A DNA stretch of 64,000 nt from Sphingobacterium mizutaii (GTDB taxonomy: Bacteria > Bacteroidota > Bacteroidia > Sphingobacteriales > Sphingobacteriaceae). Location: contig NZ_LT906468.1 in NCBI RefSeq assembly GCF_900187125.1, forward strand, positions 3,720,001 to 3,784,000, in the 5' to 3' direction. The notes beneath the pieces are model-generated. The model had not been told where the DNA came from and did no database searches. It worked only from the letters and a program-made list of their open reading frames with translations. Shown piece after piece: positions 9,941 through 51,997 of this stretch (positions are counted from its first letter, which is position 1; the number at the start of each line of letters is the position of its first letter). The position numbers and the translations under genes are program-made.

Positions 9941-10012
9941 ATAAGACAGTGGACAAAAAAGAAAGCTAAAAAATGCTAACAGCCCTACCCATGTCTTATG
10001 TCTTATGTCTAC
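9941..10012. repeat. Heptamer inverted-array element A (GTCTTAT type)
   Basis: Left side: ATAAGAC (9941-9947) and a degenerate unit AGTGGAC (9948-9954). Right side: GTCTTAT at 9993-9999 and 10000-10006, then GTCTAC (10007-10012). Right units are reverse complements of the left unit. The right array overlaps the TAG stop of the minus-strand S9 peptidase (10009-10011). The word AGCCCTACCC (9981-9990) just before the right array recurs with one change in element E. This is the shortest and most eroded of five elements of the same plan. Confidence 0.6.
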
Positions 10013-49199: not shown

Positions 49200-50399
49200 A
49201 TGAACATTCACGAATATCAAGGAAAAGAAATACTTAAGAGTTTCGGAGTAAGAGTACAAGAAGGTATTGTTGCTGAAACCCCAGAGCAAGCTGTTGAAGC
49301 TGCTAAGAGAATGAAAGAAGAATTCAACTCGGATTGGGTTGTGGTAAAAGCACAGATCCATGCGGGTGGCCGTGGTAAAGGTGGTGGTGTGAAATTAGCG
49401 AAGAACCAAGATGAAGTATTGCAACGCTCTACGGACATCATTGGCATGCAGCTAGTAACTCCACAGACTGGTCCAGAAGGTAAAAAAGTTAACAAGGTTT
49501 TAATCGCGCAGGATGTTTACTACCCTGGTGATAGCGAAACCAAAGAATTCTACATGTCTGTATTATTAGACCGTGCTACAGGTCGTAACATCATTATGTA
49601 CTCTACAGAAGGTGGTATGGACATCGAAGAAGTTGCTGAAAAAACTCCACACCTTATTTTCAAAGAAGAGATCGACCCTAAAGTAGGTCTTCAAGGTTTC
49701 CAAGCTCGTAAAATCGCTTTCAACTTAGGTCTTACTGGTGCTGCGCACAAAGACATGGTTAAGTTTGTTGCTGCATTATACAAAGCTTACGATTCAATTG
49801 ATGCATCTATGTTCGAAATCAACCCTGTTTTGAAAACATCTGATGATAAAATCTTAGCTGTTGATGCAAAAGTAAACTTGGATGAAAACGCATTATACCG
49901 TCATCCAGAAATCGCTGCTTTACGTGACATCACGGAAGAAGATCCAACTGAAGTTGAAGCTGGAGAATTCAACCTTAACTACGTTAAACTTGATGGAAAC
50001 GTAGGATGTATGGTAAACGGTGCTGGTTTAGCGATGGCAACTATGGACATCATTAAAATTGCCGGTGGTGAACCTGCAAACTTCTTAGATGTGGGTGGTA
50101 CTGCTAATGCTGAAACTGTTAAAGCTGGTTTCAACATCATCTTAAAAGACCCTAACGTAAAAGCTATTTTGATTAATATCTTCGGTGGTATCGTTCGTTG
50201 TGACCGTGTTGCTCAAGGTGTTATCGATGCATATAACGAAATCGGAAACATTCCAGTTCCAATTATCGTTCGTCTACAAGGTACAAACGCGAAAGAAGCA
50301 AAAGAATTGATCGACAATTCTGGCTTAAAAGTTTACTCAGCAATCCTATTGAAAGAAGCAGCTGAACTTGTAACTAAAGTATTAGAAGAAGGAAAATAA
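49200..50399 (+). CDS. sucC: Succinyl-CoA ligase, beta subunit
   Basis: 399-residue ATP-grasp subunit of the TCA-cycle enzyme that couples succinyl-CoA cleavage to ADP or GDP phosphorylation. N-terminal [17 protein letters not shown], the nucleotide-binding loop [13 protein letters not shown], the Mg-site region FEINPV and the C-terminal [15 protein letters not shown] are all standard. The alpha subunit gene sucD is not adjacent, which is usual in this group. Single-gene unit ended by the 50409 terminator, then heptamer element E. Confidence 0.97.
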
Positions 50400-50408
50400 T
50401 TTTCCTCC

Positions 50409-50453
50409 CATAAAAAAAGCGGGCTTTTCTCAAGAAAGCCCGCTTTTTTTATG
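50409..50453. terminator. Terminator after sucC
   Basis: The arms 50409-50427 and 50435-50453 are perfect 19-base complements (AAAAGCGGGCTTT with AAAGCCCGCTTTT at the centre) around a 7-base loop, with A and T tracts on both sides. Confidence 0.94.
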
Positions 50454-50455
50454 AG

Positions 50456-50654
50456 GTATTTAGTATAAAGTATTTAGTAGTTAGACCTATTGCTTGTTTT
50501 CAGATTGGTGGTTATGTGATTTACAATAATGAAAAACTACTAATAACAATATACTAATTGCTAGTACAAATATTATTATAACATTTCCGTCATAATCCCC
50601 CTATTTAGAGCCCTATCCTAATCTAAATACTAAATACTAACTACTAAATACTAC
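50456..50654. repeat. Heptamer inverted-array element E (GTATTTA type)
   Basis: Left array 50456-50483: GTATTTA, GTATAAA, GTATTTA, GTAGTTA, followed by GACCTAT. Right array 50624-50654: TAAATAC, TAAATAC, TAACTAC, TAAATAC, TAC, exactly the reverse-complement units, including the variant GTAGTTA/TAACTAC. The word AGCCCTATCC (50609-50618) precedes the right array, as AGCCCTACCC does in element A. Here the neighbour is co-directional, and the right array runs into the hemL promoter box instead of a stop codon. Confidence 0.85.
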
Positions 50655-50659
50655 TTTTG
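50652..50659 (+). promoter_or_regulatory. TACTTTTG promoter box of hemL
   Basis: Exact TAnnTTTG match beginning inside the last 7-mer of heptamer element E and 24 bases before the hemL ATG at 50684. Confidence 0.55.
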
Positions 50660-50683: not shown

Positions 50684-51997
50684 ATGACAACATCTACTTC
50701 AGATATTTCTCGCGAAAAGTCGGCGAAGTTATTTGAAAAAGCCAAGGAATACTTTCCTGGTGGTGTAAACTCTCCTGTTCGTGCATTCAAATCAGTATAT
50801 GGAACTCCATTGTTCATTGAGCGTGGGGACAAAGCTCATCTTTGGGATGCTGATGGCAATGAATTTATTGACTATTGCTGTTCATGGGGTCCATTGATCC
50901 TTGGTCACAATACGCCAGAAATCCGTGAAGCCGTGCAAGAGCAATTAGGTAAAGGTTTGAGTTTTGGAGCTCCCACAGCTCTTGAAAATGATCTAGCGGA
51001 ATTGATCCTTAGCAACAACAAAAAGATTGAAAAAATCCGTTTTGTAAGCTCAGGTACTGAAGCCGTGATGTCTGCTATCCGCCTAGCTCGCGGATATACC
51101 AAAAGAGACAAAATCGTAAAATTCGAAGGCTGTTACCATGGCCATTCTGACTCTCTATTGGTTAAGGCTGGTTCTGGTCTGGTAACCTTCGGTGAAACCT
51201 CTTCAGCGGGTGTACCTAAAGCTTTCGCAGATGAAACTATTGTAATTGCATTGAATGATAAAGAAGCCCTTAAAAAGGTATTTGCTGACTTCAAAGACCA
51301 AATTGCAGCGGTTATTATCGAAGGAGTCCCTGCGAATAACGGTCTATTGATCCAAGATAAAGACTATATCCATTTCCTTAGAGATATTACCAAGGAGAAT
51401 GGCGCCTTATTAATCATGGACGAAGTGATCACTGGATTCCGTTTAGGATTTGAAGGAGCATCTAAATATTATGACATACAACCCGACATCTTGACTTACG
51501 GAAAGATTATCGGTGGTGGTATGCCTGTTGGCGCTTATGGAGCATCCAAAGAATTAATGGGCTGCATTTCGCCAGATGGTTCCGTGTACCAAGCTGGAAC
51601 CTTATCGGGTAACCCTGTTGCCATGGCAGCTGGAATCGCAGCTTTGCAGATCCTGGCTCAACCAGGATTCTATGAAAAATTAGAAAAAACAACGCAAGAA
51701 TTCGTTGCAGAACTTCGCTCTTTCATTCAAGAAAACGGATATGAAGTTTCTATTACGACGATAGGTTCAATTTTCTGGTTTGCCTTTACAGATAAGGAAA
51801 AAATCCAACGTGCTGACGAAATCGATCCAGCATCCATGGAAAAATATAAAGTCATGCATAGGGAGCTATTGAACAGAGGGATTTATTTTGGCCCGTCGGG
51901 TTATGAGGTAGGATTTATTTCCGCAGCTCATACAGAAGATGACCTTAAGAAAACACTTCTTGCTATAAAAGAAGCTTTACAGATTGTATTTCAATAA
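50684..51997 (+). CDS. hemL: Glutamate-1-semialdehyde 2,1-aminomutase
   Basis: 437 residues from the ATG at 50684; the upstream TTG at 50657 is part of the promoter box. A PLP enzyme converting glutamate-1-semialdehyde to 5-aminolevulinate, the C5 haem route. N-terminal AKEYFPGGVNSPVRAF, the GTEAVMSAIRLAR helix, EGCYHGHSD, and the PLP lysine Lys274 in TYGKIIGGGMPVGAYG are diagnostic. Single gene, transcribed with no other haem gene nearby. Confidence 0.97.
   Translation: MTTSTSDISREKSAKLFEKAKEYFPGGVNSPVRAFKSVYGTPLFIERGDKAHLWDADGNEFIDYCCSWGPLILGHNTPEIREAVQEQLGKGLSFGAPTALENDLAELILSNNKKIEKIRFVSSGTEAVMSAIRLARGYTKRDKIVKFEGCYHGHSDSLLVKAGSGLVTFGETSSAGVPKAFADETIVIALNDKEALKKVFADFKDQIAAVIIEGVPANNGLLIQDKDYIHFLRDITKENGALLIMDEVITGFRLGFEGASKYYDIQPDILTYGKIIGGGMPVGAYGASKELMGCISPDGSVYQAGTLSGNPVAMAAGIAALQILAQPGFYEKLEKTTQEFVAELRSFIQENGYEVSITTIGSIFWFAFTDKEKIQRADEIDPASMEKYKVMHRELLNRGIYFGPSGYEVGFISAAHTEDDLKKTLLAIKEALQIVFQ

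Follow-up and report, generated by a model that had tools for sequence, protein, structure and literature searches.

Among bacterial repeats with a unit of seven nucleotides, the heptanucleotides of Calothrix and Nostoc are named STRR. The closest known system to the arrays studied here is formed by the four-unit GGGAATC (GGGANTN) inverted pairs of Xanthomonas, which favor four units, face inward in pairs and avoid the gaps between divergent genes (Rehm et al., 2015, PMC4692102). These repeats are G-rich and form quadruplexes in vitro, to which the authors tied the count of four. Tandem heptanucleotides scattered in the intergenic DNA of Calothrix and Nostoc are also described there, with only few inverted pairs reported for the GGGGA(C/T)T repeats of Nostoc (PMC4692102). 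Repeats of TAACTGA are present in Beggiatoaceae, cyanobacteria and five Bacteroidetes; they lie mostly just upstream of start codons, in the forward direction and with one fixed sequence, and only one inverted case is described in that genome (MacGregor, 2015, PMC4679880). The present analysis concerns a 64,000-nt stretch of a Sphingobacterium genome (G000:C1:3720001-3784000; hereafter the window, in whose coordinates positions are given unless a genome label is attached). Within it, two arrays of four heptamers face each other as the left and right arms of an inverted repeat between two genes that we take to be sucC and hemL.

The sucC-hemL pair and the other arrays of its class resemble the Xanthomonas repeats in the heptamer unit, the peak at four units, the inward pairing and the avoidance of divergent gaps; with the Calothrix and Nostoc repeats they share the tandem heptanucleotide unit and the intergenic position. 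Unlike in Xanthomonas, G tracts were rare, with GG absent from 210 of the 224 Sphingobacterium arrays surveyed (12 contained GG and 2 contained GGG), and several vocabularies coexist that are changeable in both arms together. Because most arrays are free of GG, their layout and their count of four are independent of quadruplexes, and the arrays are not members of the quadruplex repeats. No report of arrays of such kind in Sphingobacteriaceae was found among the matches listed in the open-access literature.

A genus-wide class of paired inverted arrays

The sucC-hemL pair belongs to a genus-wide class of paired inverted arrays. The class was surveyed in eight segments with a total length of 2.46 Mb from four genomes (864 kb of G000, 800 kb of G059 and 400 kb each of G028 and G057). 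An array was defined as at least three units in a vocabulary scan, for which the vocabularies were derived from the scanned segments themselves. The gene neighbours were taken from simple open reading frame (ORF) calls of at least 90 aa, with an approximate orientation (e.g., atpC was missed). The scan gave 224 arrays, whereas the mean was 0 to 0.5 in each shuffled segment, and at most one array of three or more vocabulary units occurred per shuffled 200-464-kb segment. Nearly all arrays (222 of 224) were intergenic. The end of the outer gene was faced by 170 arrays and its start by 54, and 31 of the stop-facing arms began at or inside the stop codon. Neighbouring arrays within 400 nt formed 106 pairs; the two arrays faced inward in 60 of these, were oriented alike in 46 and never pointed outward. 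Moreover, the arrays formed 122 clusters, with 62 in convergent gaps and 6 in divergent gaps, compared with 137 and 215 among the 808 background gaps of at least 100 nt. The number of units peaked at four (123 of 251 arrays), and only 16 arrays were longer.

The dominant vocabularies were T (AGTATTT), G (AGATATG), C (AGACATA) and D (AGATATT), the last of which largely replaced G in G028 and G057. In a vocabulary-free heptamer count of the eight segments, the TAACTGA unit was not among the units listed (up to 25 per segment). In arrays found without a vocabulary, 848 of 943 unit junctions contained a stop codon, which is a raw count without a background rate; the junction tetramers included TTAG (419), TGAG (271), TAAG (103) and TCAG (16). 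These stop codons lay on the strand continuing the gene whose end the array faces, in all four genomes. A stop codon in every unit was rejected as a rule, being common but broken in G063. A family-wide pattern count (245 of 301 genomes), in which the pattern itself excludes C before AG, was likewise set aside; it gave no evidence of spread, and the reversed control was as high in many genomes.

Some loci carried further repeats. At four G-type loci (G000:C1 988230-988480, 1066380-1066760, 1112160-1112490 and 1299540-1299960; L143, L147, L149 and L158), three to five arms were directly repeated with a period of about 48-49 nt, so that whole arms plus linkers have been multiplied. At G057:C1:642200-642780 (L211) and other loci of G028 and G057, the spacer between the arms was filled by a separate dispersed repeat around GGTTCAAGACAATCC...CCTTCCTTTCCTGG, which is about 43 nt long, recurs every 50 nt and is found in both orientations. 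A dispersed piece of about 32-42 nt (AACGGTCAACCC..AGGGATGGA) adjoined the arms at G000 3759384 (window 39384) and at G059 3748147, 3831330 and 1212214. A short C-type array of ATGTCTT units was located at a gene end at window 9990-10010 and lacked a clear partner with at least three units.

Register, conservation and promoter box at sucC-hemL

The heptamers of both arms were re-read exactly as listed in an earlier note on the window: GTATTTA, GTATAAA, GTATTTA and GTAGTTA from 50456 on the left, and TAAATAC, TAAATAC, TAACTAC and TAAATAC at 50624-50651 on the right. The arms form a 30-nt inverted repeat that is 87% complementary, separated by a 136-nt spacer. Ordered from outside to inside, the last five bases of the AG-units are TATTT, TATAA, TATTT and TAGTT in the left arm and, on its own strand, TATTT, TAGTT, TATTT and TATTT in the right arm. 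The unit-by-unit mirroring proposed in the note did not hold, because only units 1 and 3 match in the mirrored register and each copy of the TAGTT variant stands opposite a non-complement; GTAGTTA is innermost on the left and second-outermost on the right. The complement of the variant is present in the other arm, as the note had claimed, but the two face each other only when the register is shifted by two units, which gives an exact 16-nt complement. The occurrence of TAGTT in both arms is unremarkable, since it is the second commonest unit of T-type arms and was found in 11 of the 38 T arms of G000 and G059. The predicted fold of this stretch was an interrupted stem of 27 pairs. The z value was -4.16 for RNA, with 0 of 200 shuffles equally stable, and -2.33 for DNA, with 4 of 200.

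The region upstream of hemL was inspected in 20 relatives, four of which keep sucC there; together with G059 and the window, six species were thus compared. At least one array was present in five of them (the window, G059, S. cellulitidis, S. humi and S. endophyticum). The alignment suggested in the earlier note, in which compensatory changes between the arms are sought, was carried out at the species level with these five species. A change on both sides was observed in 0 of the 27 pairs of the window stem and in 0 of the 16 pairs of the shifted register, and shuffled partners gave the same value. Pairing was retained in 89.2% (window stem) and 90.6% (shifted register) of the cells, compared with 12 to 56% for slid partners, the structures being derived from one of the aligned sequences. 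The predicted folds paired the arms in all four species that have both, and the fold of G059 used the shifted register. Hence, the idea that the arms are kept complementary failed this test at sucC-hemL, and it was upheld only in part. The retained pairing, the four folds, the sharing of type in 44 of 56 pairs and the species-matched arms at two other junctions, which copying or selection on a stem would produce, are in its favor, whereas the absence of compensatory pairs among the five species and of a same-locus excess within genomes (38 same-type pairs) is not.

The variants kept their place within each arm. TAGTT was the last left unit wherever a left arm was present (four of four species). 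On the right, it was the second unit in three of five species, and S. humi has TAGAT at this place. The left arm of S. cellulitidis has three TAGTT units and its right arm mostly TATTT, and S. endophyticum has the right array only. At this locus, each arm was thus inherited on its own. Between the window and G059, 28 of 30 bases were identical in the left arm, 29 of 30 in the right arm and 107 of 136 in the spacer, and the right arm shared 26 to 29 of 30 bases with the window in four other species, even without a left arm. Both arms were better conserved than the spacer, although repeat alignments can slip register and the arm identities are possibly inflated.

The right heptamers continue directly into TACTTTTG, which matches the consensus TAnnTTTG given for the Bacteroidota -7 promoter (PMC9723704). 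The box ends 24 nt before the hemL ATG at 50684, and TAnnTTTG starts 30 to 32 nt upstream of this ATG in all six species; it is kept in the species of L033 despite hardly any array. That the right array adjoins a promoter box, as the earlier note had stated, was therefore confirmed as conserved sequence in six species, and the promoter is putative. The right array may have a role in hemL expression, judging from its position. Among start-facing arms, 4 of 54 had a box within 30 nt outside the arm; the corresponding counts were 1 of 170 for stop-facing arms and 460 of 13698 (3.4%) for background intergenic windows, and two of the four boxed start-facing arms are the sucC-hemL locus and its G059 ortholog. 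The box as a general trait of start-facing arms was rejected, since 4 of 54 is not clearly above the 3.4% background. Because it is rare at other arms, the array-adjacent promoter box is a property of the sucC-hemL locus and not of the array class.

Shared vocabularies and their possible origin

The types of the two arms were compared by a permutation test, from which 4 of 60 pairs from a duplicated element were dropped (n = 56). Both arms were of the same type in 44 pairs, the permutation mean was 26.7, and 0 of 5000 permutations were as high. The arms were coherent in type in G000 (20 of 22) and in G059 (11 of 12). The likeness did not reach the level of units: in the 38 same-type pairs, the two arms resembled each other no more closely than arms taken from different loci, and four word- or position-based scores gave same-locus arms no excess and no clear deficit either. 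Unit-by-unit correction between the arms was rejected at sucC-hemL and had no genome-wide sign. The impression by eye at a few loci that the words of the left arm recur in the right arm in the opposite order was also rejected (p = 0.46). The inner flanks gave no general signal as an extra stem (p = 0.72), with two clear loci in G057.

By flank similarity, 21 array loci outside a duplicated family were orthologous between G000 and G059. The types agreed at 17 of them and had changed in both arms at three, where T was replaced by G at atpD-atpC, T by C at ilvD-ilvB and G by C at the junction at window 16748; at locus 3856651, a degenerate right arm was called as a different type. Five loci in co-covered stretches had no listed partner (G000 3759384 and 1340276; G059 3661218, 1044838 and 1110218), and for 3759384 and 3661218 two-unit counterparts were located at the expected place in the other genome.

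Thirty atpD-atpC and thirty ilvD-ilvB junctions were fetched, of which 28 and 29 were usable. Near-identical species (13 of 28 and 8 of 29) were removed, leaving 15 and 21 species, the remaining kinship of which lies outside the statistics. By eye, an inward pair was present at atpD-atpC in all of the 15 species except G021 and G082, weakly in G048, and the units varied; G033, for example, has GTA-type heptamers, and G063 has TGCG units. The left/right match was higher within species than between species at atpD-atpC (16.8 vs 11.2, n = 15) and at ilvD-ilvB (13.2 vs 10.1, n = 21), with 0 of 20000 permutations as high for each junction; at ilvD-ilvB, several species, including G028, G084 and G027, showed no within-species excess. 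Furthermore, when both loci of a species were compared, same-locus arms matched better than other-locus arms in 14 of 19 cases (p = 0.008), and the same comparison gave p = 0.049 for 10 non-redundant species. Part of the within-species match is the species' own vocabulary.

At atpD-atpC of G059, G018, G031, G032 and G057 (L226, L227, L230, L246 and L237), the innermost left unit pairs, by eye, with a copy directly behind it, and such a local hairpin would compete with the long stem. In G018 (G018:C1:3874047-3874365 and 3857132-3857435), pieces of NrdF and IlvB were in two frames, which suggests assembly frame errors or broken genes.

The explanation preferred here, for which confidence and doubt are evenly balanced, is that the sucC-hemL element is an ageing member of the class, in which pairs are renewed as a unit and the units change independently afterwards. 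Renewal of an array pair as one unit would give both arms the same vocabulary, and arms of the same type but with different units fit one such event followed by independent change. The most economical mechanism would be fold-back template switching during replication, by which one arm is rewritten from the other. Such switching creates and restores stems and makes or restores the inverted-repeat arms of quasipalindromes in one event (PMC8794818); it is proposed as a cause and not as a related family. Slippage over 7-nt repeats may help the renewal, and perhaps selection for a stem-loop as well. Between renewals, the units of each arm would change independently, as is observed at sucC-hemL. Many pairs are located directly behind stop codons or between cistrons, where a stem-loop in the 3' or intercistronic RNA would be their natural role; this function and the template switching are both suggested by sequence patterns. 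The sucC-hemL pair would lie outside the expected mRNAs, with its left arm after the putative sucC terminator and its right arm before the -7 box of hemL, which makes an RNA role of this pair unlikely. Its stem would form only in read-through RNA or in DNA, and its right arm probably survives as AT-rich promoter-upstream DNA.

Direct traces of copying were observed at two or three loci only, and none was seen at sucC-hemL. Beside the arms at G057 3440548, 33 nt of non-array sequence were also inverted-complementary, and at G057 3407715 this held for 42 nt, the first 10 of which were non-array. At atpD-atpC, the right arm of G042 matched, by eye, the inner left segment, and that of its relative G033 matched the outer one. 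Complementary flanks at p < 0.05 were found in 4 of 44 arm combinations. Several observations weigh against renewal and ageing of the pairs. Two of these four combinations, both in G028, look like terminator hairpins, and the null sets of G057 were so small that the flank p could not fall below about 0.03. Type coherence was absent in G057 (5 of 12, expected 4.3) and not significant in G028 (8 of 10, p = 0.08). Frequent copying should raise the likeness of arms at the same locus, so the low alignment score of same-type same-locus arms (19.5 vs 20.6 expected, with 0.9988 of permutations at least as high) also counts on this side. In addition, the conservation of both sucC-hemL arms above that of the spacer, the pairing of about 90% of the pair cells and the folding together of the arms in every species with both are at odds with ageing. 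Selection on the sucC-hemL stem is possible.

Type coherence without unit-level matching is also accounted for if each pair of arms forms the termini of a small, non-autonomous mobile element resembling a miniature inverted-repeat transposable element, which was inserted whole, with the types as families and the arms decayed since. This origin, which we consider rather unlikely, would account for the fixed unit number as well. It is in line with the inner end AGACCTA of T arms, conserved across species, with T and D pairs that seem to be nested in G028 and G057, and with the pieces of 27 to 57 nt shared in or beside the spacer by some non-orthologous G000/G059 loci. Examples of such pieces are ACGGTCAACCC..AGGGATGGA, which adjoins the arms of four loci, and a stretch present in duplicate at 1032590 and 1340276; at least some further cases occur in G028 and G057. 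However, the shared pieces are short, concern a minority of the 63 G000/G059 clusters and differ by group, and a masked comparison gave no common core. Random fresh insertion would not yield 21 loci at the same places in G000 and G059, three of them type-switched in place. If the arrays instead grew by neutral slippage, the arms would be alike only through the repeat vocabulary of the species. The over-representation of heptamers in many bacteria is ascribed to polymerase slippage in two reports (PMC4679880, PMC4692102), and sharing a locus does not make same-type arms more similar to each other. Slippage alone is nevertheless improbable in view of 60 inward pairs against 0 outward pairs, the sharp stop at four units, and the better same-locus than other-locus match within 14 of 19 species; moreover, two main types coexist in G000, yet 20 of its 22 pairs are coherent.

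Two further explanations assign a function to the heptamers themselves. The right array might be an operator of hemL, in which a protein would bind the tandem heptamers that immediately precede the -7 box. The conserved box and the near-identical right arm in all five array-bearing species, even without a left arm, would be expected of an operator, but the same vocabulary is found at many unrelated gene ends, the frequency of boxes near start-facing arms, with this locus and its ortholog included, is not clearly above background, and L033 carries the box with hardly any array; an operator thus appears distinctly improbable. We regard as very improbable a translation fail-safe, in which each heptamer brings a stop codon and three units close all frames behind a gene. 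Although the stop codons at 848 of 943 junctions (again without a background rate), the 170 of 224 arms facing a stop codon and the 31 beginning at or inside one agree with it, pairs also separate co-directional cistrons, where one arm is antisense and faces a gene start, the TGCG units of G063 at atpD-atpC and ilvD-ilvB are without stops, and the left arm at sucC-hemL follows a terminator-like hairpin.

Features of the sucC-hemL region and implications

The features of the region are listed in Table 1. The name sucC is our assumption from the translated sequence, and hemL is presumed from the label in the earlier note. Judged by the HemL protein, the nearest named relative is S. cellulitidis, with 96% identity. 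The hairpin placed between sucC and the left array resembles a terminator. Since the left arm is also partly complementary to a segment within the spacer, which the earlier note did not list, a competing pairing of this arm with the spacer is possible. An Rfam search of the 64-kb window at gathering thresholds gave 0 matches.

Table 1. Features between and including sucC and hemL, in window coordinates.
Feature	Position	Strand	Basis
sucC (succinate-CoA ligase beta subunit), upstream gene	49200..50399	+	ORF, 399 aa
Terminator-like hairpin, 19 bp, perfect, with A and T tracts	50409..50453	.	Inverted repeat, 100% complementary, loop 7 nt
Left arm: four T-type heptamers (AGTATTT vocabulary), then inner end AGACCTA	50456..50485	+	Inverted-repeat and vocabulary scans
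Second partial complement of left arm, within spacer	50535..50557	-	Inverted repeat, 23 nt, 83%
Right arm: four T-type heptamers, inverted	50622..50651	-	Repeat scans; 26 to 29/30 bases identical in four other species
TACTTTTG, match to Bacteroidota -7 promoter box TAnnTTTG	50652..50659	+	Conserved position relative to hemL ATG
hemL (glutamate-1-semialdehyde aminomutase), downstream gene	50684..51997	+	ORF; mechanical start 50657, ATG 50684 conserved in relatives

For hemL alone, the consequence is modest, in that its conserved promoter box is immediately preceded by a repeat array. The conserved junctions that switch vocabulary in both arms are a natural record of inverted-repeat rewriting, which is testable throughout a genus in an essential operon at atpD-atpC. 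Moreover, the link between quadruplexes and the count of four cannot hold as a general rule. Tentatively, and with doubt prevailing, the four-heptamer inward-paired array may be a module of bacterial intergenic DNA in general, with a fixed unit length, unit number and pairing but with free letters. Such a module would have arisen or spread in a G-rich form in Xanthomonas and in an AT-rich form in Sphingobacterium, with an entire vocabulary exchangeable in both arms in one step where the gene junction is conserved. If this were true, quadruplex formation would be a by-product, and the real constraint would be the 28-nt arm length and the pairing.
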